The notes under the pieces are model-generated. The model saw only the letters and a program-made list of their open reading frames with translations, had not been told where the DNA came from and made no database searches. The translations under genes were made by a program, and so were the position numbers. From Enterococcus wangshanyuanii (GTDB lineage: Bacteria > Bacillota > Bacilli > Lactobacillales > Enterococcaceae), in the NCBI RefSeq assembly GCF_002197645.1, contig NZ_CP021874.1:372001-436000 (forward strand): 64,000 bases of DNA. The letters run 5' to 3'. Below are positions 32,138 to 43,087 of the stretch, one piece after another. The stretch's first letter is position 1. The number at the start of each line of letters is the position of its first letter.

Positions 32138-32554
32138 ATGAAGCTATTACTTGTCTCGCATGGAACCTTTGCAACTGGCTTATTTGAAAGCTATGTCATG
32201 ATTGCTGGAGTAAACAGTGATATTTCTGCGATTTGTTTAACAGATGAAGGGGTTGGAGATTTTTCTAAACGTTTGCAGGACTTTGTAAAAATGCATGTTA
32301 ATGACGGTCTTTTGATTCTGTGTGATATTAAAGGAGGAACGCCATTCAATGAAGCGTATCGGGAATTTTTAGCAAATCCGCAGCAAGTAAAAGTGGTGAC
32401 AGGGATGAATTTACCAATGTTGATTGAAACAGGCGTTGCCTTGCAAAATGGCGGAAAGTTTGAAGAATTGGTTGAACTAGCAGTCAATACTGGAAGAACT
32501 TCTATTGAAGGGACTGAAGTATTAGAGGAACAAGAGGATGAAATCGACTTTTAA
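32138..32554 (+). CDS. PTS mannose-family IIA component (system 1)
   Basis: 138 residues, MKLLLVSHGTFATGLFES with the phospho-accepting His8, then the EIIA-Man fold (DGLLILCDIKGGTPFNEAY; VKVVTGMNLPMLIE). It passes phosphate from HPr to IIB. First gene of the operon IIA-IIB-IIC-IID-ManA-GntR under a promoter with a palindromic operator. ATG 32138 follows GGGGG, 8 bases away. Confidence 0.92.
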   Translation: MKLLLVSHGTFATGLFESYVMIAGVNSDISAICLTDEGVGDFSKRLQDFVKMHVNDGLLILCDIKGGTPFNEAYREFLANPQQVKVVTGMNLPMLIETGVALQNGGKFEELVELAVNTGRTSIEGTEVLEEQEDEIDF

Positions 32555-32568
32555 AGGAGGAAAACAAC

Positions 32569-33060
32569 ATGACCATTACATTAGCAAGAATCGATGACCG
32601 AGTGATTCATGGACAAACAACGACGCGATGGACAAAAGCAAGACCTGTCCAAGGAATCTTGGTTGTAGGAGATGATATCGCTCAGGATGACTTAAGAAAA
32701 AAAGTACTGAAGGCAGCGGCTGGAAACTTGAAATTAGGAATTTATACCGTAGAGCAAGCAGTTGAAAGCGTTCCGAAGGGGAAAAACTCCCAAAAGGATT
32801 TCTTTCTTATCAGCAATTCGCCGCAAACGTTTGCGAAATTAGTAAAGCTTGGGGTAGATTTTGGTAAAAAACTCAATGTTGGACCGATGAATACTCGTGC
32901 TGGAGCAAAAGTGTTAGGACGAACAGTGGCCATCGATGAAAAAGATTATGAAGCTTTTGAATATATGGATCAGCAAGGAATCGAAATCGGATTTCAATTG
33001 TTGCCGGATGATGAAATCAAACCTTGGAAACAATTAAAAGCCAAATATGATGGGATGTAA
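32569..33060 (+). CDS. PTS mannose/fructose/sorbose IIB component (system 1)
   Basis: 163 residues, IIB-sorbose family: LARIDDRVIHGQ with phospho-His14, then NVGPMNTRAGAKVLGRTVAI and LPDDEIKPW. Receives phosphate from IIA and phosphorylates the incoming sugar. 14 bases after IIA with its own AGGAGG. Confidence 0.92.
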   Translation: MTITLARIDDRVIHGQTTTRWTKARPVQGILVVGDDIAQDDLRKKVLKAAAGNLKLGIYTVEQAVESVPKGKNSQKDFFLISNSPQTFAKLVKLGVDFGKKLNVGPMNTRAGAKVLGRTVAIDEKDYEAFEYMDQQGIEIGFQLLPDDEIKPWKQLKAKYDGM

Positions 33061-33087
33061 GGGGAAAAACAGATAGGGGGAACCAAA

Positions 33088-33921
33088 ATGGATACAGGAT
33101 TATTATTGCCAGCATTATTGACCGGAATTTTTTGTTACTTAGGTGTGATCGAAACCCCATGGCTTTTTGGTATGACCGGTGGGTTTTACATTGTTGGTCG
33201 ACCATTGGTTGCAGGATTGTTGGTAGGGATCGCTTTTGGTGATGTGCAGGCGGGGATTCTTTGCGGACTAGCTGTTCAAGCCGTATTTATTGCCAATTTA
33301 ACGACAGGCGGAGCAACGAACAGTGAGATCACGTATGCGGCTTATGGCGGCATTGGTTTGGCTTTAGCAACAACGAAAGATCCTGCTGTTGCAGTTACCT
33401 TGGCGATTTTGATCGGACAAACATTTGGACTTATTTTTTACAATTCTAGAATGGCAGCGTATTCTTTTTGGAATACACGGGCGCAAACCGCTGCAGAGAA
33501 AAATGATGATCGAGGAATCGTTTTGAATCATGTTGTTTATCCTCAGATCACGACCTTCCTGTTGCGGGCAGTACCAGTATTTTTGGCAATATTCTTAGGA
33601 AAAGGTTTAGTGAATTGGCTTCTTTCAAACGTTCCTCAGGTCGTAACGGATATTATTTCTGTTTTAGGCGGTGTCTTGCCAGCATTAGGAATCGCTATGC
33701 TAATGAGCATCGTAGTCAAAGAAAAGGCGCACTTGATTTTCTTTTTTGCAGGTTTTGTTTTAATGGCATTTGCCGGATTGAATATGATCGCTTTAGTATT
33801 TATCGCAGCACTTGTCGCTTATATCGTCTTTTTAGCAACAGGCAATGCGTCTAATGCTCAACCTAAAACAGCAAATCAATCGGCTGATTCTACTGTATTT
33901 GAAGATGATGATCTATTCTAG
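33088..33921 (+). CDS. PTS mannose-family IIC component (system 1)
   Basis: 277 residues, IIC of the sorbose/mannose type with several membrane segments (GIFCYLGVIETPWLFGMTGGFY, RPLVAGLLVGIAFGDVQAGI). Translocates the sugar together with IID. C-terminus acidic (DDDLF), like its paralogue at 37932. Sequence differs enough from system 2 to suggest a different sugar. Confidence 0.92.
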   Translation: MDTGLLLPALLTGIFCYLGVIETPWLFGMTGGFYIVGRPLVAGLLVGIAFGDVQAGILCGLAVQAVFIANLTTGGATNSEITYAAYGGIGLALATTKDPAVAVTLAILIGQTFGLIFYNSRMAAYSFWNTRAQTAAEKNDDRGIVLNHVVYPQITTFLLRAVPVFLAIFLGKGLVNWLLSNVPQVVTDIISVLGGVLPALGIAMLMSIVVKEKAHLIFFFAGFVLMAFAGLNMIALVFIAALVAYIVFLATGNASNAQPKTANQSADSTVFEDDDLF

Positions 33922-33936
33922 AAAGGATGAACTGAC

Positions 33937-34755
33937 ATGGAACAATCAACGAAGCGTTTATCAAAAAAAGAGTTACGTCAAATCTGGAAACGTTGGGGTT
34001 TCACCCATCTTTCTTCGATGAGCTATGAAAAATTACAAGCGCATGCCTGGGCGTATTCCTATCTGCCATTTGCTGAAAAATACTATAAGAATGATCCAGA
34101 AAAAAAGAAACGTTTATTGATGCGTCATTCAATGTTCTATAATACTGAACCACAAACGGGACAGCTGATCAACGGGATCGTAGCCTCTTTAGAAGAAGAG
34201 ATTGCTATCGGCGGCGATGTGCCGGAGGAAATGCCGATCAATATCAAAACAACGCTGATGGGACCATTAGCAGGAATTGGAGATTCGATCATTCAGGGCA
34301 TCATCGTACCGATTTTATTATCGATCGGAATGGGCTTGGCTTCTGGCGGGAATGCTTTAGGACCGATTTTTTATATCTTATCGTATGGAGTAGTTGGGGT
34401 ATTGATTTCCTACCTTGCGTTTATGAATGGGTATAAGTTAGGCGTGAACGCCATCGATGTGATCATTGGCGAAAATGCGAAACGAATCACAGATGCCTTC
34501 AATATTTTAGGGGTGATGGTTGTCGGTGGCTTAGCTGCTTCGAATATTGCGCTCGTAACAAAATTAAAAATTCCAATGGGGGAAGAAGTCCAAGCCTTAC
34601 AAGAGGTATTGGATGGCATCTTTCCTAAGGTACTACCGTTGGCGATGGTATTATTAGCTTGGTACTTATTGACATCTAAGCAATTGACAGCAACAAAAGT
34701 TATTTTAGTATTGACTGTTATTTCTGCGATCGGTGTTGTCGTTGGCGTTTTTTAG
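33937..34755 (+). CDS. PTS mannose-family IID component (system 1)
   Basis: 272 residues, IID: FYNTEPQTGQLINGIVASLEEE, TTLMGPLAGIGDSIIQGIIVPILLSIGMG and C-terminal membrane helix. Works with IIC as the sugar channel. ATG 33937 lies 15 bases after the IIC stop. Confidence 0.92.
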   Translation: MEQSTKRLSKKELRQIWKRWGFTHLSSMSYEKLQAHAWAYSYLPFAEKYYKNDPEKKKRLLMRHSMFYNTEPQTGQLINGIVASLEEEIAIGGDVPEEMPINIKTTLMGPLAGIGDSIIQGIIVPILLSIGMGLASGGNALGPIFYILSYGVVGVLISYLAFMNGYKLGVNAIDVIIGENAKRITDAFNILGVMVVGGLAASNIALVTKLKIPMGEEVQALQEVLDGIFPKVLPLAMVLLAWYLLTSKQLTATKVILVLTVISAIGVVVGVF

Positions 34756-34770
34756 GAGTGGTGAAAAAGT

Positions 34771-35682
34771 ATGTTTATATTAAAATCGATTCCCAAAAAA
34801 AGAATTTGGGGAACGCCTCGTTTACAAGCCTATTCAACTGAAATCTGTGAAGGAAAAATCGGTTCTGTGTATTCAGCATCAGCAACCAAAGAAATCGATA
34901 GTCCTGTTGTTTCGAAACAGCAGACACTACGTGAGTTGGTACAAGCAAACCCACAGTCCTTTGGTTTGCTTGAAGGAGAAGAATATCCTTTGATTATTTC
35001 GATGACTGGCGCAGATGAGGATTTGAGCATTCAAGTGCATCCTACTGATGACTATGCTAAAAAAACTGCCAATAAGTCGTATGGAAAAAGTGAAGCGTGG
35101 TTCTTTTTGACACCGCCCAAAAGTGGATCGATCATCGCGGGGCAAATTGCAGATTCTAAACAAACTTTTACAACGGCGATCCAAGAGAACAAGTATGAAA
35201 CGATTTTAGGAAAAACGACAGTGGCGAAAGAATCGATCGTGTATATTCCTTCTGGGACCATTCACGCATTGACCAAAGGCGCATTAGTCTATGAAATTCA
35301 GCAGTCTACAGATATCACATATCGTTTTTATGATTATGATCGTTCCGATGATTCTGGCATCAAAAGAGAACTGCATACAAAACAAGCGACTGAAACACTA
35401 GAATTACAACAAACTGTTCTAAAAGCACATTTTGACTTAGAACAAACCCTTGATATGAAAGAATTTACTGTCAGAAGAGCACTTTTAGAAAAAAACTACC
35501 GAAATCAAGAATCCTTAGCACAAGTAATCACTGTTTTGGCGGGAACAACTAAAATCGCTGAACAAGAAATCCAGCAAGGCCAGAGTATAATCGTTTTGCC
35601 AAATGAACAATTAGTGATCGATACACCATTTGAATGTATGATCGCCACACCAAAAGCATATTGGCGCGAGACTTCTGTCTAA
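34771..35682 (+). CDS. manA: Class I mannose-6-phosphate isomerase
   Basis: 303 residues, type I phosphomannose isomerase: start IPKKRIWGTPRL, LSIQVHPTDDYAK with zinc ligands Gln/His, GKSEAWFFL and IPSGTIHALTKGALVYEIQQ with further Glu/His ligands. Converts mannose 6-phosphate to fructose 6-phosphate. Placed inside the PTS-1 operon, so an aldose entering by this PTS, possibly mannose, is isomerised to a glycolytic intermediate. It could also take the mannose 6-phosphate from the mannosylglycerate operon. Confidence 0.9.
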   Translation: MFILKSIPKKRIWGTPRLQAYSTEICEGKIGSVYSASATKEIDSPVVSKQQTLRELVQANPQSFGLLEGEEYPLIISMTGADEDLSIQVHPTDDYAKKTANKSYGKSEAWFFLTPPKSGSIIAGQIADSKQTFTTAIQENKYETILGKTTVAKESIVYIPSGTIHALTKGALVYEIQQSTDITYRFYDYDRSDDSGIKRELHTKQATETLELQQTVLKAHFDLEQTLDMKEFTVRRALLEKNYRNQESLAQVITVLAGTTKIAEQEIQQGQSIIVLPNEQLVIDTPFECMIATPKAYWRETSV

Positions 35683-35722: not shown

Positions 35723-36439
35723 ATGAATTTGCCTTTATACAAAAAAATCGAGCAGGATCTATTAGATAAGATCGAAGACGGAACCTATGCTGAAAATGAA
35801 CTGATCCCAACAGAATTAGAATTAGCTGAAGAATATCAAGTAAGCAGACCGACAGTAAGACAGGCGGTCCAAACATTAGTGGATGCTGGCTATTTAGAGA
35901 AGAGAAAAAAAAGAGGAACGATCGTTAAACGCCCAAAAATCGAGCAGGAATTTACCAAAGTAATCGAAAGTTTCGATTCTGAGATGAGCCGAAAAGGCTT
36001 GGTGCCAAAGACGAAAGTCATTGCTTTTAGAAAAGACGCTGCCAATGAAGAAGTGGCTGGAAACCTAGAAATAGTAGAAGGTGATGACGTCTATAAGCTG
36101 ATTCGTTTACGATATGCTGGAGAACAACCGACAGTTTTAGTAACTACCTACATCCCGGCATTTCTATTTAAGGAACTTGATGACGTCGATTTTTCTACAA
36201 ATTTACTTTACAGTATTTTTAAAGAAAAAGGCTATCCGATCAAGACAGTCTCACGTCGTTTAGATGTGATTCAAGCGGATGACACAGTGAGTGATTTGTT
36301 GGATGTTGAGGTAGGCGCACCGTTGTTTTATTTCCATACACGAGGATTTACAGACGGGAAATTACCGATCGAGTATTCGATTTCAAAATATCGAGGAGAT
36401 ATAAATTCCTTTGTGTTTGAGATCACTGAAAATGGCTAG
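35723..36439 (+). CDS. GntR-family regulator with UTRA domain (system 1)
   Basis: 238 residues: N-terminal GntR winged helix (PLYKKIEQDLLDKIEDGTYAEN, LAEEYQVSRPTVRQAVQTLVDAGYLEKRKKRGT) and a UTRA ligand-binding domain (DDVYKLIRLRYAG, LPIEYSISKYRGD). Last gene of PTS operon 1. It most likely binds ATGTAATTACAT sites at 31993 and 32110 and responds to a sugar phosphate. ATG 35723 follows GAGGAGG. Confidence 0.9.
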   Translation: MNLPLYKKIEQDLLDKIEDGTYAENELIPTELELAEEYQVSRPTVRQAVQTLVDAGYLEKRKKRGTIVKRPKIEQEFTKVIESFDSEMSRKGLVPKTKVIAFRKDAANEEVAGNLEIVEGDDVYKLIRLRYAGEQPTVLVTTYIPAFLFKELDDVDFSTNLLYSIFKEKGYPIKTVSRRLDVIQADDTVSDLLDVEVGAPLFYFHTRGFTDGKLPIEYSISKYRGDINSFVFEITENG

Positions 36440-36459: not shown

Positions 36460-36512
36460 AAACATGCATAGGATATGACGACTGTTGTATCTTGTGCATG
36501 TTTTGTTTTTTT
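36460..36512 (+). terminator. Rho-independent terminator of PTS operon 1
   Basis: AAACATGCA pairs with TGCATGTTT, with an inner GGATA/TATC helix, then TTGTTTTTTT. Confidence 0.78.
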
Positions 36513-36542: not shown

Positions 36543-36580
36543 TTGCATAAAAAATATTCATGTGCTATTGTTATGACAAT
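36543..36580 (+). promoter_or_regulatory. Promoter and operator of the second GntR gene
   Basis: TTGCAT (36543-36548), 17 bases, TATTGT (36566-36571). ATTGT-TATG-ACAAT (36567-36580) overlaps the -10; a close relative, ATTGTAATGACATT, lies at 37393-37406 before the PTS-2 genes. Confidence 0.6.
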
Positions 36581-36615
36581 GAGATGTAGAAAGTATGACA
36601 ATGAGATGTAGAAAG
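36572..36615 (+). repeat. Perfect 22-bp tandem duplication in the 5' leader
   Basis: Two perfect 22-base copies (36572-36593 and 36594-36615), each starting TATGACAATGAG, lie head to tail just before the ribosome binding site of the GntR gene. The second copy adds another ATGACAAT half-site. Confidence 0.85.
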
Positions 36616-36626
36616 AAGGAGGAAAA

Positions 36627-37340
36627 ATGAACGATAATCGATTACCGTTATATATACAGATTGCTAGTGATCTAAAGTTTAAGATCAATACTGGCGAGTG
36701 GCAAGTTGAAGATCAGATTCCTACTGAATTTGATTTATGTGCGATTTACGATGTCAGTCGAATCACGATCCGAAAAGCGATCGATCAGCTAGTCAATGAA
36801 GGATTGTTATACCGTAAACGGGCAGTAGGTACTTTTGTACAAGCAAAAGAAGCAGAGACAAAAGAGACAATTGTTAAGAGCTTCACTCAGGAAATGAATA
36901 ATCTAGGTAGAAAAGTGCATACGCTAAAAGCGGAGATCACAACAGTGAAAGCAACAGCTAAAATCGCTAATTTTTTGAATATCAAAGAAGGAGATCTTGT
37001 ACTAAACTTGCAGCGGGTCTTTGGGACTGAAGAACTAGCTTTTGCATTTTTCGATACGTATTTCACTTATGAATCGTTCTTTTCAACAAACAGTAAAGAC
37101 TATTATGGTTCTTTTTATGAATATTTGAAAACATTTGATATCGTCGTAGATTCCATTAAAGAATATGTCGAAGCTGTAGAACCCAATGAACAGTTAGTAA
37201 AAGCTCTTAAAATCAGTGAACATACGCCTATTTTGAAGAGAGTTCGAATCACCGAACAATTAGGGAAAGTGTTTCACGAGTATTCAGAGTGTTTTTATAT
37301 CGGCAGTGAGTATCGCTACTACGTCAATGATTTTACCTAA
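36627..37340 (+). CDS. GntR-family regulator with UTRA domain (system 2)
   Basis: 237 residues: GntR winged helix (LPLYIQIASDLKFKINTGEWQ, LCAIYDVSRITIRKAIDQLVNEGLLYRKRAVGTF) and UTRA domain with ISEHTPILKRVRI and YYVNDF end. It stands alone upstream of PTS operon 2, with its own promoter, and probably controls that operon and itself through the TTGTnATGACA-type sites. ATG 36627 follows AAGGAGG. The effector is probably a sugar phosphate made by PTS-2. Confidence 0.9.
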   Translation: MNDNRLPLYIQIASDLKFKINTGEWQVEDQIPTEFDLCAIYDVSRITIRKAIDQLVNEGLLYRKRAVGTFVQAKEAETKETIVKSFTQEMNNLGRKVHTLKAEITTVKATAKIANFLNIKEGDLVLNLQRVFGTEELAFAFFDTYFTYESFFSTNSKDYYGSFYEYLKTFDIVVDSIKEYVEAVEPNEQLVKALKISEHTPILKRVRITEQLGKVFHEYSECFYIGSEYRYYVNDFT

Positions 37341-37392
37341 AAGTGACAAAAAATATATTTCTAGATTTAGAAGTATATTTTTATTATATCTT

Positions 37393-37406
37393 ATTGTAAT
37401 GACATT
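37393..37406 (+). promoter_or_regulatory. Candidate GntR operator before PTS-2
   Basis: ATTGTAATGACATT shares the TTGTnATGACAnT core with the site at 36567-36580, which supports a common repressor. No confident -35/-10 pair was found for this operon start. Confidence 0.5.
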
Positions 37407-37429
37407 ATACCAAATGAGGGGGAGAAAAA

Positions 37430-37930
37430 ATGGCAATTTCATTTATTAGGATCGATGACCGAATTATTCATGGTCAAGTGGTTACGCGATGGATGAGCGA
37501 ACGAAAATGTGACGGAGTTGTGGCAGTCGATGATCCATCAGCGACAAATCCAGTATTAGCCAAAATGCTAAAATCAGCAGTACCATTGCCGCTAAAAGGT
37601 TTTGTAATGACAGAAGAGGAGATCATCAAAAAGTGGCCCAAAATTGTTGAGAGTAAACGACACTATTTCTTGATTGCTCGTTCACCTGAAACGTTGGTTC
37701 GAATTTTTGAAAGCGGTGTCGATTTTATTTCTGAGCGAAATGACCTGAATGTAGGACCAATGAGTGTTCGAGACGGCGCAAAAAAATATGGTAAAAATCT
37801 AAGCATTTTGCCGACAGAGGAAGCTGCTTTTGACACATTGGAACAAAATGGCATGAATGTTTCTTTTCAACTAGTACCAGATTCTAAAAAGAAAACATGG
37901 ACTGAGTTAAAGATAGAAGGAGGAGAGTAG
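37430..37930 (+). CDS. PTS mannose/fructose/sorbose IIB component (system 2)
   Basis: 166 residues, IRIDDRIIHGQ with phospho-His14, NVGPMSVRDGAKKYGKNLSI and LVPDSKKKTW. Unlike system 1 this operon starts with IIB and places IIA last. The IIC gene follows almost directly. Confidence 0.92.
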   Translation: MAISFIRIDDRIIHGQVVTRWMSERKCDGVVAVDDPSATNPVLAKMLKSAVPLPLKGFVMTEEEIIKKWPKIVESKRHYFLIARSPETLVRIFESGVDFISERNDLNVGPMSVRDGAKKYGKNLSILPTEEAAFDTLEQNGMNVSFQLVPDSKKKTWTELKIEGGE

Positions 37931-37931
37931 T

Positions 37932-38747
37932 GTGGACATAACACTATTGTTTCAGGCAATTGCGATCTCGATTTTTTGTTACTTAGGTGCTTTATCGACG
38001 CCGTGGCTGCTGGGGCTGACCGGCGGCTGGTATACGATTACACGTCCGTTAGTTTCAGGAATGATCGTTGGATTGATTTTAGGAGATATGAAGCAAGGGA
38101 TCATTATGGGGGTGGCGATCCAAACGGTGTATATTGCCATGGTCACACCTGGCGGACAGATGCCTGCAGATTTGAACTTTGTTGCATTTCCTGCAATTGC
38201 CCTTGCGATGCTTTCGAATACGAGCACGGAAGTTGCAGTAACATTAGCGACAACGATCGGGATTCTTGGGACGATCGTTTTCAATATGTATCAAGTAGTC
38301 AATTCATTTTGGAATCATCGGGCAGTTGCTGCTATTCATGAAGGGGATTATAAAAAATTTCGTATGAATGCGATCGTAGGCCCTCAATTGATCAACTTTG
38401 TTTCACGATTTGTGCCATCATTTTTAGTGATTTTCTTTGGTTCTAGTTTTGCAAAAACGTTATTGGATTCTATGCCTCAATATTTGATCGATGTAATGAG
38501 TTATTTAGGCGGAGTGCTTCCGGCAATCGGGATTGCCATGTTATTGACAGCAGTTGTCAAAGAGAATTCATTGTTTCTATTTTTCTTACTAGGTTTTGTT
38601 TGTATTGTTTTTCTTAATTTGAACATGATCGCCTTGACGATCGTTGCAGCTGTCATTGCCTATCTTTATTTCAATGGTTCGAATAAATCGGGAGCAGTTA
38701 GTTCAGCTGGCGTCATTCTTGAAGAAGACGAAGAGGAGGAATTTTAA
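37932..38747 (+). CDS. PTS mannose-family IIC component (system 2)
   Basis: 271 residues with IIC membrane helices (ISIFCYLGALSTPWLLGLTGGWY; RPLVSGMIVGLILGDMKQGI). GTG start at 37932, one base after the IIB stop codon, with AAGGAGGAG upstream. The C-terminus ends in an unusual Glu-rich tail (EEDEEEEF). Forms the transport channel with IID. Confidence 0.9.
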   Translation: MDITLLFQAIAISIFCYLGALSTPWLLGLTGGWYTITRPLVSGMIVGLILGDMKQGIIMGVAIQTVYIAMVTPGGQMPADLNFVAFPAIALAMLSNTSTEVAVTLATTIGILGTIVFNMYQVVNSFWNHRAVAAIHEGDYKKFRMNAIVGPQLINFVSRFVPSFLVIFFGSSFAKTLLDSMPQYLIDVMSYLGGVLPAIGIAMLLTAVVKENSLFLFFLLGFVCIVFLNLNMIALTIVAAVIAYLYFNGSNKSGAVSSAGVILEEDEEEEF

Positions 38748-38749
38748 CG

Positions 38750-39568
38750 ATGGATAACAAACTTTTAGACAAAAAGACGTTAACAAAATCATATCATCGC
38801 TGGATGATGTACAACTTAGTTGCGATGAGTTTTGAATTTTTAGAAGCGATGGGTTTTGCCCTTTCTATGGAGCCGGTAGCAGATAAGCTATATAAAGATC
38901 AACCTGAAAAGAAAAAAGAAATGCTTGAGCGTCATACAGCTTTTTATAATACAGAACCCCAGGTAGGTGCGTTGATCAATGGAATCGCGGTTGGTCTTGA
39001 AGAGCAAAAAGCATTAGGCAATGCTGGAATCACAGGTGAACTGATCAATAGTTTGAAAATTGGTTTGATGGGTCCTTTAGCTGGGATTGGTGATTCTATG
39101 GTCCCTGGAATGTTGATTCCGATCTTACTTTCGATTGGGATGGGTCTTTCAGCAAATGGCAGTATTTTAGGTGTTTTATTTTATATCGTTGCTTTTAACA
39201 GTATTGTTTATTTAGGTTCGCGTTATCTATTTTTTAAAGGATATGAATTAGGGGCAGAATCAGTCGATGTTTTTACGGGTGAAAAAGCACAGCAAATCAC
39301 AAAAGCAATTACAGTTCTTGGTATGACAGTGATCGGTGGTGTTGCTGCTTCTTATGTAAATCTTGAGATTCCAGCGAAGTTTGCTTTGACAGGAACCGAA
39401 ATCGATGTTCAAGCGATACTAGATGGAATTTTTCCTAAGTTGGCTCCGTTAGTAGTGATCTTTGCCTCATGGTATTTAATGGCAAAAAGAAAAGTATCTC
39501 CAGTTAAATTGATTTTTATCTATTTTATTGTTGCATTCGCAGCAGTTGGATGGGCGTACTTATTTTAA
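38750..39568 (+). CDS. PTS mannose-family IID component (system 2)
   Basis: 272 residues, IID: FYNTEPQVGALINGIAVGLEEQ, GLMGPLAGIGDSMVPGMLIPILLSIGMG. Two bases after the IIC stop. Paralogue of the system 1 IID but clearly diverged. Confidence 0.92.
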   Translation: MDNKLLDKKTLTKSYHRWMMYNLVAMSFEFLEAMGFALSMEPVADKLYKDQPEKKKEMLERHTAFYNTEPQVGALINGIAVGLEEQKALGNAGITGELINSLKIGLMGPLAGIGDSMVPGMLIPILLSIGMGLSANGSILGVLFYIVAFNSIVYLGSRYLFFKGYELGAESVDVFTGEKAQQITKAITVLGMTVIGGVAASYVNLEIPAKFALTGTEIDVQAILDGIFPKLAPLVVIFASWYLMAKRKVSPVKLIFIYFIVAFAAVGWAYLF

Positions 39569-39586
39569 ACAGAGGAGGATATATTA

Positions 39587-40003
39587 GTGGAAAATCGTGT
39601 TATTCTAGTGAGTCATCTCGGTTTGGCTTCAGGAATGAAACAGGCGTTGGAGTTTATCGTAGGTCCGCAAGATGAACTGTATGCTGTTGAATTGGATGAA
39701 AAAGGGATCGAAATGTTTAGGCAGAAATTAGCTATTTTTGTAAAAAGTCCTTTTGAAGGAACAACGATTATTGTGAGTGATATTCCAGCTGGCTCACCTG
39801 GAGCGACAGCGTACAGTTTACTGAGCGGTCATGGTGATGTGCGTTTGATCAGTGGAATGAATCTACCGTTGATTCTTGATTTAGTCCTTTCAAGTACAGT
39901 AAAAGAGATCGGAAAATTGATTCCAGAGGCAATTGCTTCAGCAAAAGAAACGCTTCAAGAGTATTCAATCCTTTCGGAGGAAGAGTTAGATGATGAATTT
40001 TAG
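39587..40003 (+). CDS. PTS mannose-family IIA component (system 2)
   Basis: 138 residues: ENRVILVSHLGLASGMKQALE with His10 as phospho-acceptor; VSDIPAGSPGATAYSLL and LISGMNLPLILDL are typical of the fold. GTG start 39587 behind AGAGGAGG. Gene overlaps the next one by 14 bases, which links IIA to the isomerase genes translationally. Confidence 0.88.
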   Translation: MENRVILVSHLGLASGMKQALEFIVGPQDELYAVELDEKGIEMFRQKLAIFVKSPFEGTTIIVSDIPAGSPGATAYSLLSGHGDVRLISGMNLPLILDLVLSSTVKEIGKLIPEAIASAKETLQEYSILSEEELDDEF

Positions 40004-40769
40004 TCAGAACTTACCCGTTTGTTTAAATGAATCAGAATTAAGTTTGACATTTGGCAAGGATCTTTTTCACCCAGCTGATTTAGAAAGAAGATACTTAAAT
40101 GATATTCGCAGCAGTTTACTCGATCCACAGGCAAAAGGGCCCGAGGTCTTATATACGATCGCAATGGATGTTGGGAAAATCAAGGATCGGGACGATTTAC
40201 AAAAGCGCAATTTGCTTTATGGAATGGTGGCATACAATGATGGGTTGATTGGCAATGAGCTGGTCCGAAGTCAAGGACATATTCATGCTGTTTCTGCCTC
40301 GTGCGGCTCATCTACTCCAGAAGTTTATGAAATTTGGCAAGGAAAAGCGTATATCTATATGCAGGAATTTGTTTCAGAGAATGCTGGTCGTTGTTTTGCT
40401 ATCATTGCTGAACCAGGAGATATTGTCATCGTTCCGCCGAATTGGGCTCATTACACAGTTAATGCAAGTCAGTCTGAAAAAATGCTATTTGGTGCTTGGT
40501 GTATTCGTGATTATTCCTTTGACTACCAAGAAATCAGGGCAAAGCAAGGCTTGGCTTTTTATCCAGTGATGGAAGGGAAACAGGTGATTTGGAAGAGAAA
40601 TCCTCAGTATGATCAGTCTGAGCTAACCATAAAACTGGCACGAGCTTATCCTGAATTTTTCTTATCTAAGAATCATTTATATGAGCAGTATGAAGAAAAT
40701 AATTCTTGCTTTGATTTTGTCACTGATCCCTTAGCATATAAAGCGTTATGGGAACATTTCCAACCATAA
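39990..40769 (+). CDS. Cupin-type phosphoglucose isomerase homologue, copy 1
   Basis: 259 residues of the cupin phosphoglucose isomerase family (archaeal-type GPI). The metal site is visible in the pattern RSQGHIHAVS (two His), PEVYEIWQGKA (Glu) and VPPNWAHYTVN (His). The C-terminal ~90 residues go beyond the core cupin. Starts inside the end of the IIA gene (ATG 39990, GGAGG upstream). The next gene is a shorter member of the same family, so the pair may form a heteromer or act in sequence. Probable role: aldose-ketose isomerisation of the sugar phosphate delivered by PTS-2. Confidence 0.78.
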   Translation: MMNFSQNLPVCLNESELSLTFGKDLFHPADLERRYLNDIRSSLLDPQAKGPEVLYTIAMDVGKIKDRDDLQKRNLLYGMVAYNDGLIGNELVRSQGHIHAVSASCGSSTPEVYEIWQGKAYIYMQEFVSENAGRCFAIIAEPGDIVIVPPNWAHYTVNASQSEKMLFGAWCIRDYSFDYQEIRAKQGLAFYPVMEGKQVIWKRNPQYDQSELTIKLARAYPEFFLSKNHLYEQYEENNSCFDFVTDPLAYKALWEHFQP

Positions 40770-40782
40770 AAGGAGTGGGAAC

Positions 40783-41337
40783 ATGATTTATTTTAATAAA
40801 GAACTTGTTTGCCTAGAAGGAAAAGAAATCAAGCGAAATCAGACCAAATTGCGCAGCTATATTGAGTATTATCAGGAGCACAAACACATTGAAAATCTGG
40901 ATCAAGTGATTTATGAAGTTGAATACCACGATAATGGTTTGAATGAGGGAGATCAAGGTGGTCTATTTTGGGGAATCTCCCACGTAATGCCAGGCACGAT
41001 CGGGAACGAATATCACATGACTAAAGGACATCTTCATAAAAAAGCAGAGACGGGTGAGTATTATTGGGGATTGAAAGGGATCGGACTACTCTTACTTGTA
41101 TTTGAAGATGACAGCTATGAGCTGCAGAAAGTCCGTGAAGGTTCTGTCCACTATATTCCAGGAAATACAAGTCATCGTTTAATCAATTGTGGAGTTGAAA
41201 CATTATCTGTCGGTGCCTGCTGGTTTACAGAATCCGGACATGACTATTCAAATTGTCATTTTCCAATTAGAGTTGTAAAGAATGGAGAGAATAAGGTTGA
41301 AATCATCAATAGTACGTCCAAAAATCAAAATAAATAG
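40783..41337 (+). CDS. Cupin-type phosphoglucose isomerase homologue, copy 2
   Basis: 184 residues, same GPI cupin family as the preceding gene: HVMPGTIGNEYHMTKGHLHKKAETGEYYWGLKG holds the His and Glu ligands, and HYIPGNTSHRLINCG the last His. It is closer to the canonical length of archaeal enzymes. ATG 40783 follows AAAGGAGTG. The downstream isomerase gene starts 41 bases before this stop. Substrate probably glucose-type or related hexose phosphate. Confidence 0.82.
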   Translation: MIYFNKELVCLEGKEIKRNQTKLRSYIEYYQEHKHIENLDQVIYEVEYHDNGLNEGDQGGLFWGISHVMPGTIGNEYHMTKGHLHKKAETGEYYWGLKGIGLLLLVFEDDSYELQKVREGSVHYIPGNTSHRLINCGVETLSVGACWFTESGHDYSNCHFPIRVVKNGENKVEIINSTSKNQNK

Positions 41338-43033
41338 CACTGCGACAGTCGTGACTTCATATGATAAGATTGTCCAGTTTATACAAGCAAAACAAACAAA
41401 AAAGTCGTTTAGATTAGCGATTGAATGCTATCCGGTAACGAATGAAGCACTTTTATTGGATCAATTGATTCAGCCGTTAAACCCTGAGCTAGTCTTGTCG
41501 GCAGATGATCTATTTATGGAACCAGTAAAAGTCAAAGAAAAAATTCAGGACAATCTAACAGAGGATCGCATTTTTGGTTTGATGAGTCATCATAAACTGA
41601 CTGACTTTATCGATGAAGGAAAATATAAGCAATCTTCTGAACGTTTAGCTGAACAGACTACGAAAGGCGGTCTATCGATCATTTATGGTATGGGTGCTGC
41701 TCTTGTTGAAAATGTGGATATGATCATTTATGTCGACCTAGCTAGATGGGAAATCCAAAAAAGATATCGTTCCGGTAATTACAGTAACTGGCTTGGAGAG
41801 AATGCTGGAGAAGATCCACTAAAAATGATCAAACGCGGCTACTTCTTCGAGTGGCCGCTGGCAGATCGCTACAAAAAGGAGCTTGTGGACAAAATCGACT
41901 TTCTACTGGATATCCATGAGGAAGAAGAGCCTAAACTTTTGAGCTATCAAGACTATTTGAAAGGCTTAGAAGCTGTTGCTCATCAGCCGTTTTCGCTCGT
42001 TCCCTTTTTTGATCCTGGTGTTTGGGGCGGTACTTGGATGCAAAAACAATTTCAAGTTGGTTTAAATGAACAAAATCTAGCTTGGAGTTTCAACGGTGTG
42101 CCAGAAGAAAACAGTTTACTACTAGATTTTTCAGACATTAGTATAGAAACACCGGCAAATAATCTCCTTTTTTATCAAGCAGAAAAACTGCTGGGTGCTC
42201 GGGCTTTTGGACGTTTTGGTCATGAGTTTCCGATTCGTTTCAATTTTCTTGATACGATGGATGGACAAAATCTTAGCTTACAGGTTCATCCAAAAGTAGA
42301 CTATGCTCAAGAACAATTTGGGATTACTTACACGCAGGATGAAAGCTACTATGTGTTAGAGGCAAAAAATGAGGCTGTTGTCTATCTTGGCGTTAAGCAA
42401 GGGGTAGAAAAAGCGGAACTGATCAACGCACTAAAAGCAGCAGAAAAAGGGGCCGGTTTTGATGATGGAAAATATATTTATCGCCATAAAATGAAAAAAC
42501 ATGATCATTATTCGATTCCTTCTGGAACGATCCATTCAAGCGGAAAAGATTCAGTCATTTTAGAAATCAGTGCTACCCCAAATCGATTTACGTTCAAATT
42601 ATGGGATTGGGATCGTGTGGATTTCGATGGATTGCCTCGTCCGGTCAATATTGAACATGGGGAGAAAAATATCGAGATATACAAAGATGCCGAATGGGTA
42701 GAACGAGAATTGATCAATCCATTTGTAATCGTAGCCCAAGCGGAAGGATGGATCGAAGAAAAAACAGGACTGCACGAAACTGAATTTATTGAAACAAGAC
42801 GACATACGTTTAGTAAAAAAGTGACGCATGAAAATCATGGCAGCGTCAATGTGTTGAATCTTGTTGAGGGAGAATGTGCACTCGTTACTAGTCCTTCAGG
42901 AGAGTTTGAACCGTTTGAAGTTCAATATGCCCAAACGTTTATCATACCGGCGACGATTGCTCATTATCAGATAGAACCATATGGCGCGAGCAAAGGTAAA
43001 ACAGTCAAAACGATCAAGGCGTATGTACGCTAA
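41297..43033 (+). CDS. Fusion of a kinase-like domain to class I mannose-6-phosphate isomerase
   Basis: 578 residues. The first ~210 resemble a nucleoside/uridine-kinase-type domain (AIECYPVTNEALLLDQLIQ, VLSADDLFMEPVKVKE, MIIYVDLARWEIQKRYR) but without a clear GxxGxGK P-loop. The rest is a type I phosphomannose isomerase (FDPGVWGGTWMQKQF, LSLQVHPKVDYAQ, SYYVLEAK, IPSGTIHSSGKDS) with zinc ligands kept. The chosen start is TTG 41297, 7 bases after TGGAGAG; ATG 41282 has no ribosome binding site. Last gene of PTS operon 2. It likely isomerises the product of the PTS or of the cupin enzymes; the N-terminal domain may be regulatory. Confidence 0.8.
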   Translation: MKSSIVRPKIKINSTATVVTSYDKIVQFIQAKQTKKSFRLAIECYPVTNEALLLDQLIQPLNPELVLSADDLFMEPVKVKEKIQDNLTEDRIFGLMSHHKLTDFIDEGKYKQSSERLAEQTTKGGLSIIYGMGAALVENVDMIIYVDLARWEIQKRYRSGNYSNWLGENAGEDPLKMIKRGYFFEWPLADRYKKELVDKIDFLLDIHEEEEPKLLSYQDYLKGLEAVAHQPFSLVPFFDPGVWGGTWMQKQFQVGLNEQNLAWSFNGVPEENSLLLDFSDISIETPANNLLFYQAEKLLGARAFGRFGHEFPIRFNFLDTMDGQNLSLQVHPKVDYAQEQFGITYTQDESYYVLEAKNEAVVYLGVKQGVEKAELINALKAAEKGAGFDDGKYIYRHKMKKHDHYSIPSGTIHSSGKDSVILEISATPNRFTFKLWDWDRVDFDGLPRPVNIEHGEKNIEIYKDAEWVERELINPFVIVAQAEGWIEEKTGLHETEFIETRRHTFSKKVTHENHGSVNVLNLVEGECALVTSPSGEFEPFEVQYAQTFIIPATIAHYQIEPYGASKGKTVKTIKAYVR

Positions 43034-43049
43034 AAAATAAACATGTTAA

Positions 43050-43087
43050 GCAGTACTGCAGAAGATACTCTGTGGTGCTGTTTTTTT
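43050..43087 (+). terminator. Rho-independent terminator of PTS operon 2
   Basis: GCAGTACTGCAGA pairs imperfectly with TCTGTGGTGCTG, then seven T. Confidence 0.8.

Follow-up and report, generated by a model that had tools for sequence, protein, structure and literature searches.

Two GPI-family cupins and a phosphomannose isomerase fusion in an Enterococcus wangshanyuanii sugar operon: a possible accessory route for hexose phosphates

A stretch of 64,000 nucleotides from the 4.16 Mb genome of Enterococcus wangshanyuanii (contig NZ_CP021874.1, positions 372,001 to 436,000), referred to here as the window, contains an operon for a mannose-family phosphotransferase system (PTS), two cupins of the GPI family (CUP1 and CUP2) and a protein, MANA, that joins a kinase-like domain to a phosphomannose isomerase (PMI). 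Comparison with related loci revealed that CUP1, CUP2 and a PMI form the conserved part, and that the transporter, kinase or glycosidase ahead of them is swapped between lineages. Sequence evidence establishes which genes make up the set, that the set is conserved, which residues set CUP1 apart and that the operator is common to several loci. On balance, the operon is somewhat more likely than not to be an accessory sugar-catabolic unit, by which a hexose phosphate would be channelled into the mannose-6-phosphate/fructose-6-phosphate pool. Its features are as follows.

36567..36580, no strand assigned: probable GntR operator, palindrome ATTGTTATGACAAT; the pattern recurs at cupin loci and at part of the alpha-mannosidase loci
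36627..37340, + strand: GntR/UTRA (HutC-type) regulator (PF00392, 62.8 bits; PF07702, 84 bits)
37430..37930, + strand: PTS IIB, mannose family (PF03830, 129.2 bits)
37932..38747, + strand: PTS IIC, mannose family (PF03609, 219.8 bits)
38750..39568, + strand: PTS IID, mannose family (PF03613, 283.6 bits)
39587..40003, + strand: PTS IIA, mannose family (PF03610, 42.1 bits)
39990..40769, + strand: CUP1, GPI-family cupin of 259 residues, metal site kept, proton-transfer residues replaced
40783..41337, + strand: CUP2, GPI-family cupin of 184 residues with a PGI-like His158
41297..41971, + strand: MANA N-terminal domain, pantothenate/uridine-kinase-like fold without a P-loop
41972..43033, + strand: MANA C-terminal domain, class I PMI
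43048..43083, + strand: terminator-like stem 3′ of MANA (consensus match only)

A second terminator-like stem lies at 36460-36503, and the genes from GntR to MANA form a single compact unit on the + strand between both stems; the region is no richer in such stems than shuffled sequence. IIA and CUP1 overlap by 14 nt and CUP2 and MANA by 41-56 nt, and MANA has 578 residues when translated from the TTG at 41297. A sequence-only reading of the window had described a PTS, two PF06560 cupins and a P-loop-less kinase-like/PMI fusion; the operon is as described, and those domain assignments were correct. The further claim, that three isomerase-type genes exceed the needs of glucose or mannose uptake, agrees with the retention of the set behind sugar-entry modules and with the presence in the genome of its own Pgi and other PMI-like genes.

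Conservation of the cassette and its entry modules

When named genome contigs were scanned once with the CUP1 alignment, 202 places were confirmed, and the best 80 were taken as loci. These are skewed to close relatives and include near-duplicates (L029/L034 and L043/L058); L108, L110, L111 and L112 repeat L008, L062, L024 and L020. Neighbours were counted on the same strand within 8 kb, none of the 80 loci being dropped, and again in a full-flank subset, the 55 loci having 5 kb or more of sequence to each side. Locus counts were made with tblastn because ORF calling left genes undetected in part of the high-GC loci; residue counts were made from ORF clusters (74 CUP1 and 51 CUP2, window included).

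It is apparent that a PMI gene (65 of 80 loci) and CUP2 (58) are the most regular companions of CUP1, followed by GntR (37), mannose-PTS IIC (24), ROK (10), GH1 (7), a cellulase-like gene (5) and a mannitol-dehydrogenase-like gene (4). GH38 was found in none of the 80 loci, and two GH38 tblastn probes were likewise unmatched. By tblastn the MANA N-terminal domain was present in 58 loci and CUP2 in 58, with both in 44 and neither in 8. In the full-flank subset, PMI was present in 45 and CUP2 in 41; 36 had both, 9 had PMI only, 5 had CUP2 only and 5 had neither. The sequence-only reading had made its case depend on conserved gene order and had proposed co-occurrence with mannose-family PTS genes as a check. 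The set is kept, but the exact order of the window was found in only 4 of the 80 loci, the others being permuted; the PTS association holds for the 24 loci with IIC, and other entry modules take its place elsewhere.

Within 295 Lactobacillales genomes, CUP1 was found in only 8, including one distant cupin, and the fusion in 35, and the fusion adjoins CUP1 in 7 of 7 strong cases. Thus, in this order, CUP1 was not seen without MANA save for the distant cupin, and MANA often occurs without CUP1. Among 348 Bacillota genomes the sole strong CUP1 was the window's own (433 bits); the remaining 62 genomes with CUP1 matches scored 76-152 bits and fit a third GPI-cupin clade, described below. Beyond Bacillota, loci of Fusobacteriota, Actinomycetota and Planctomycetota are among the 80. 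CUP2, ROK, MANA and CUP1 are all together in Persicobacter, and Parabacteroides distasonis carries AraC-CUP2-ROK-CUP1-MFS-cellulase-like-GH2-SusC-SusD, without MANA. At L109:6176-7332, CUP1 is split across two frames and CUP2 is short, so that the cassette looks broken.

Four kinds of entry module were distinguished: the mannose-family PTS; a Lac-type PTS with a GH1 glycosidase; a ROK kinase; and another PTS with the mannitol-dehydrogenase-like gene. Lac-type IIC, Gat-type PTS, MngB-like GH38, glycerate-kinase-like and some ROK proteins were assigned by reading the N-terminus rather than by family search. The two best solved matches of the GH1 protein of a cupin locus are, as named, a beta-glucosidase (4b3k) and a 6-phospho-beta-D-glycosidase (5foo). 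Other proteins of cupin loci are GH2 and cellulase-like, with no assigned function; GH2 genes lie in L059 and L114 and a GH42-like gene in L049. An alpha-amylase-family enzyme in Priestia (L013) and GH66- and rhamnosidase-like genes in L084 count against a purely beta-linked source. No hydrolase gene is present in the window operon.

The four PTS subunits of the window each score above the Pfam cut-offs, and none reaches an NCBIfam cut-off. The best NCBIfam model for IIC was AgaW, far below its cut-off; assignment of a substrate from the PTS type was therefore dropped and nothing was concluded from it. A tree of IIC sequences clusters most cupin-linked IICs, but it was given little weight because the loci had been chosen for their cupin, only eight other rows were included and branches were long. 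Plasmid-borne relatives of the window PTS reach at best 43% identity, and no cupin annotation was found in the single plasmid record inspected among them. The neighbouring PTS operon (32138-35682, with a 303-residue ManA) has an IIC 80% identical to one in Tetragenococcus solitarius (L020:4985-10783) that is located close to MANA-CUP1; because of that linkage, both window operons may belong to one sugar system.

Residues of the two cupins

The alignment comprised 74 CUP1, 51 CUP2 (window included) and 30 members of the third clade, and positions are given in the numbering of the Pyrococcus furiosus phosphoglucose isomerase (PfPGI). Against the PF06560 cut-off of 20.7 bits, CUP1 of the window scores 84.1 bits; CUP2 scores 66.9 bits. 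The metal ligands His88, His90, Glu97 and His136 are kept in every member of all three groups. The structure predicted for CUP1 (pLDDT 94.5) is a GPI cupin with extra N- and C-terminal parts, and its best structural match is PfPGI itself (1x7n; Foldseek 1.1e-13, 26% identity).

In PfPGI, an isomerase of glucose-6-phosphate and fructose-6-phosphate, His158 and Tyr152 take part in proton transfer, according to PMC6627849. Both are lost from CUP1, with Phe at 158 and Cys at 152 in 74 of 74 sequences. CUP2 retains His158 in 50 of 51 and has Trp at 152 in 50 of 51, the window included, with Tyr in one. Position 71 (Thr in PfPGI) is Val, Cys or Met in CUP1 and Thr or Ser in CUP2, and position 85 (also Thr in PfPGI) is Ser in every CUP1 and Thr in every CUP2. 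Gained in CUP1 are Gln86 and Trp151, both invariant, and Arg154 (73 of 74). With so many diagnostic columns differing, a recent duplication giving rise to the pair was ruled out. The sequence-only reading would be contradicted if both cupins were ordinary glucose-6-phosphate isomerases; as far as sequence can tell CUP1 is not one, but CUP2 may be.

The third clade is without His158 and Tyr152 in 30 of 30 members, and the loss of these residues from CUP1 therefore need not abolish isomerase activity. Its members (L116-L145), which account for all 30 of the top-ranking PF06560 loci in a sample of 398 Bacillota genomes, are approximately 245 residues long and apparently solitary in the neighbourhoods inspected.

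Two unequal paralogues per operon recall LacA and LacB, which are described in PMC3755991 as distant paralogues (17% identity), inactive apart and with a single active site at their interface. By that precedent CUP1 and CUP2 would be one isomerase with a joint active site, and CUP2 does lie near CUP1 in most loci (58 of 80). We consider this improbable, since CUP1 and PMI occur without CUP2 in 9 of the 55 full-flank loci, CUP2-like genes occur in 10 of the 348 Bacillota genomes without a strong CUP1 match, and each cupin has a complete metal site of its own. The same two counts weaken the cupin heterodimer proposed by the earlier reading, and co-dependence of the two proteins was not supported, each being found without the other. 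The CUP2-like cupins of those 10 genomes (L146-L155) are in clusters that often contain FGGY kinases, 2-hydroxyacid dehydrogenases and aldehyde-ferredoxin-oxidoreductase-like genes; the one in L155 adjoins a 3-hexulose-6-phosphate synthase.

The fusion protein, its regulator and the operator

MANA residues 231-457 align to the solved PMI 1qwr at 2.1e-16. Q334, H336 and E354 are present in 56 of 56 sequences and H418 in 55 of 56; we take these four to be the zinc ligands. The kinase fold is present in the N-terminal domain, which is strongly conserved despite its missing P-loop: the Walker A motif GxxxxGK[ST] was found in 0 of 72 homologues, and kinase activity of this domain was accordingly ruled out.

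The fusion is also found apart from the cupins. Of 28 genomes that carry the fusion but no strong CUP1, 19 contributed to a cupin-free set of 20 loci. A GH38-type alpha-mannosidase gene was present in 17 of these loci, 12 detected by tblastn and 5 being MngB-like by N-terminus; L093, L099 and L100 lack such a gene. All five MngB-like loci (L094, L096, L097, L104 and L105) have a PTS, and GH38 was confirmed by Pfam in L094. Three of the five contain a glycerate-kinase-like gene; a glycerate kinase accompanies MngB-like GH38 in mannosylglycerate use. Annotated records show MANA-ROK-GH92-MFS-GH38 in Parabacteroides and MANA with MFS and GH92 in Hymenobacter, and a Deinococcus plasmid (L165) carries MANA-AGE epimerase-ROK.

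A MANA tree was built from 72 rows (52 from cupin loci, window included, and 20 cupin-free), MANA ORFs outside 540-620 residues having been dropped. Cupin and cupin-free rows interleave, with 8 changes, all forced by supported branches, versus 17.7 when labels were shuffled; the cupin label is therefore clustered, yet has been exchanged repeatedly. The window clade has an alpha-mannosidase locus, L087, as its sister, and L095 holds the same position next to the E. avium group. A version of MANA special to cupin loci was not found: no column has differing residues at 80% or more in each group. The context argues strongly that MANA is a mannose-6-phosphate isomerase in cupin and cupin-free loci alike.

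In six cupin loci (L057, L065, L074, L077, L078 and L082) a plain PMI of 316 residues replaces the fusion, probably as the result of one event, because one neighbourhood is common to all. It is thus the PMI step that is conserved and not the kinase-like domain, and that domain is not specific to the three-isomerase operon. An idea that the domain serves as a sensor for the sugar of this operon, raised in the earlier reading, is not supported, for two reasons: the fusion occurs in cupin-free alpha-mannosidase loci, and plain PMI occurs in cupin loci. More broadly, the cupins or the kinase-like domain might act in sensing or moonlight in some other function instead of catalysing a step of the route, as the conservation of an N-terminal domain devoid of a P-loop could suggest. 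Given that metal ligands are invariant in both cupins and that plain PMI can stand in for the fusion, this appears very improbable.

The operator pattern was found at 36 sites in 1.89 Mb of compared loci and at none in one mononucleotide shuffle; five of the 36 fall in the repeat locus copies named above. For 32 of the 36, the start of a GntR, MANA, IIB or PMI-like gene lies no more than 400 bp downstream; no such start is listed for the sites in L010, L033 and L095 and for one of two in L031. Besides cupin loci, the cupin-free loci L090, L091, L093 and L095 have sites. When up to three mismatches were allowed, 8 of the 10 cupin-free loci with a GntR match had a site upstream of GntR (L093 and L099 being near-copies), and a site was present in 89 of 2,000 random 320-bp segments, a background in which genuine sites are included. 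With the regulators of 8 of these 10 loci the window GntR shares 48-55% identity, and with the other two 44% and 29%; its identity to the neighbouring GntR at 35723 is 28%. Bacilli and some Lachnospiraceae clearly have the operator in common, but for most clostridial loci this is not apparent.

The exact operator has a single match in the whole genome and one-mismatch sites elsewhere are at control level, so a regulon elsewhere in the genome was rejected. Beside the one-mismatch sites, no sugar isomerase or glycosidase genes were seen by reading the 3-kb loci; a PTS-like frame was present in L176. A 22-bp unit, TATGACAATGAGATGTAGAAAG, is tandemly repeated twice at 36572-36615, just upstream of GntR, and its first copy overlaps the operator.

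Possible routes and comparison with known systems

In the accessory unit favoured here, the mannose-family PTS would import a hexose as its 6-phosphate. CUP1, a putative metal-dependent isomerase or epimerase without the usual PGI proton-transfer residues, would convert the imported hexose phosphate, with assistance in most loci from the more PGI-like CUP2. The fusion would then turn mannose-6-phosphate into fructose-6-phosphate, a step to which the gene context points strongly. Because the regulator and its palindromic operator form a module that also controls some alpha-mannoside loci, mannose-6-phosphate is probably the common intermediate, and it or a close relative is probably the inducer.

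Several observations weigh against this account. An isomerase that only shifts the carbonyl from C1 to C2 or back is confined to glucose, mannose and fructose, which makes a cupin route to mannose-6-phosphate puzzling; if all three enzymes did only this, they would merely interconvert the 6-phosphates of glucose, mannose and fructose, and CUP1 would be redundant with the organism's own Pgi. The loss of both proton-transfer residues in the third clade means that their loss in CUP1 need not signify a new reaction. MANA scores 32.3 bits against the manA model TIGR00218, below the cut-off of 116.2. No same-strand PMI lies within 8 kb in 15 of the 80 loci (some contigs being incomplete), and the full-flank loci with neither PMI nor CUP2 are L018, L026, L037, L047 and L053. 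Cupin-free L092 and L106 lack an operator site, 10 of the 20 cupin loci listed, mostly clostridial, have no site with up to three mismatches upstream of GntR (the other 10 have one), and the control-level frequency of one-mismatch sites in the window's own genome belongs here as well.

Either CUP1 has another chemistry, or the sugar contains both glucose and mannose, or MANA accepts the phosphate of a mannose-like rare hexose; a rare-hexose substrate for the operon is possible. In its boldest form the first alternative would make CUP1 a catalytically novel branch of the GPI cupins that acts one carbon further on, by C2-C3 ketol isomerisation or C3 epimerisation of a hexose-6-phosphate. CUP1, CUP2 and the PMI would then be a portable three-isomerase cassette that serves an unrecognised hexose in several phyla under a mannose-6-phosphate-type regulator, coupled in each host to the transporter, kinase or glycosidase available there. 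This we advance only tentatively and think doubtful.

According to the second alternative, the operon would be an upper pathway for gluco-mannosides, in which both cupins are ordinary glucose-6-phosphate isomerases and MANA handles mannose. The mannose context of MANA, the beta-acting glycosidase families in some loci and the PGI-like state of CUP2 (His158, Thr or Ser at 71, Thr at 85) would fit, as would the glucose-6-phosphate/fructose-6-phosphate isomerase activity given for the family member PfPGI in PMC6627849. It is nevertheless rather unlikely: both proton-transfer residues are lost in 74 of 74 CUP1, the window operon has no hydrolase, Pgi is already in the genome, and there is no ready reason for an operon to hold two PGIs.

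A rare C3-epimer route would instead give each enzyme a non-redundant role. The PTS or a ROK kinase would supply allose-6-phosphate or altrose-6-phosphate, CUP2 and the PMI would convert these to allulose-6-phosphate, and CUP1, by 2,3-enediol chemistry, would act as a C3-epimerase yielding fructose-6-phosphate. A cupin with both proton-transfer residues changed is available for this step, and the glycosidases, where seen, are mostly of beta-acting families (GH1 and cellulase-like, with GH42-like and GH2), which plant beta-allosides would suit. At L113:2134-3575, a GPI-family cupin lies directly 3′ of a ribulose-phosphate/allulose-6-phosphate 3-epimerase-like gene, but it is only a distant homologue. 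Alpha-mannosidase loci have MANA too and, to some extent, the regulator and operator, and the two settings cannot be told apart by any MANA column; this points to mannose-6-phosphate and not altrose-6-phosphate. The enzymes of L013 and L084 do not fit a beta-linked source, and we know of no epimerase chemistry in the GPI cupin family. We therefore regard this route as unlikely.

Each part of the operon belongs to a known family; no description of the gene combination or of the CUP1 subfamily was found in the open-access literature searched. The CUP1 subgroup carries the database name 'glucose-6-phosphate isomerase family protein', and 687 protein clusters match CUP1, some of them outside the subgroup. 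What travels with PMI through several phyla is a cupin subgroup without the proton-transfer residues of the solved member. If its substrate were found, the name of many genes could be corrected, and a sugar niche occupied by gut and environmental bacteria would come into view. The operator offers a direct handle, as knowing what induces a single small GntR protein would reveal the intermediate of the pathway.

Five known systems provide a comparison. Mannose-family PTS operons (Man, Sor, Aga) have IIA, IIB, IIC and IID, all present here likewise; here three isomerase genes follow the PTS and no NCBIfam cut-off is reached. PfPGI (PF06560) has its family, metal site and fold in common with CUP1, and CUP2 additionally matches it at His158 and Thr85; CUP1 is longer, at 259 residues, with Phe, Cys and Ser at 158, 152 and 85 plus Gln86, Trp151 and Arg154, and CUP2 differs by Trp at 152. 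The QVHP, E and SGTIH residues of class I PMI (ManA; 1qwr) are conserved in MANA too, which differs in its P-loop-less kinase-like N-terminal domain and in its score below the manA cut-off. The LacAB galactose-6-phosphate isomerase (PMC3755991) likewise comes from a sugar operon with a pair of isomerase paralogues that differ in length, but its fold (RpiB) is unrelated and CUP1, in contrast, occurs without its partner. The cupin-free MANA/alpha-mannosidase loci of Lactobacillales and Bacteroidota (GH38 or GH92, ROK or PTS, GntR) contain the same fusion and, in some cases, a GntR of the same family with the same operator; they differ in having no cupins, mannose presumably being released there by the alpha-mannosidases.

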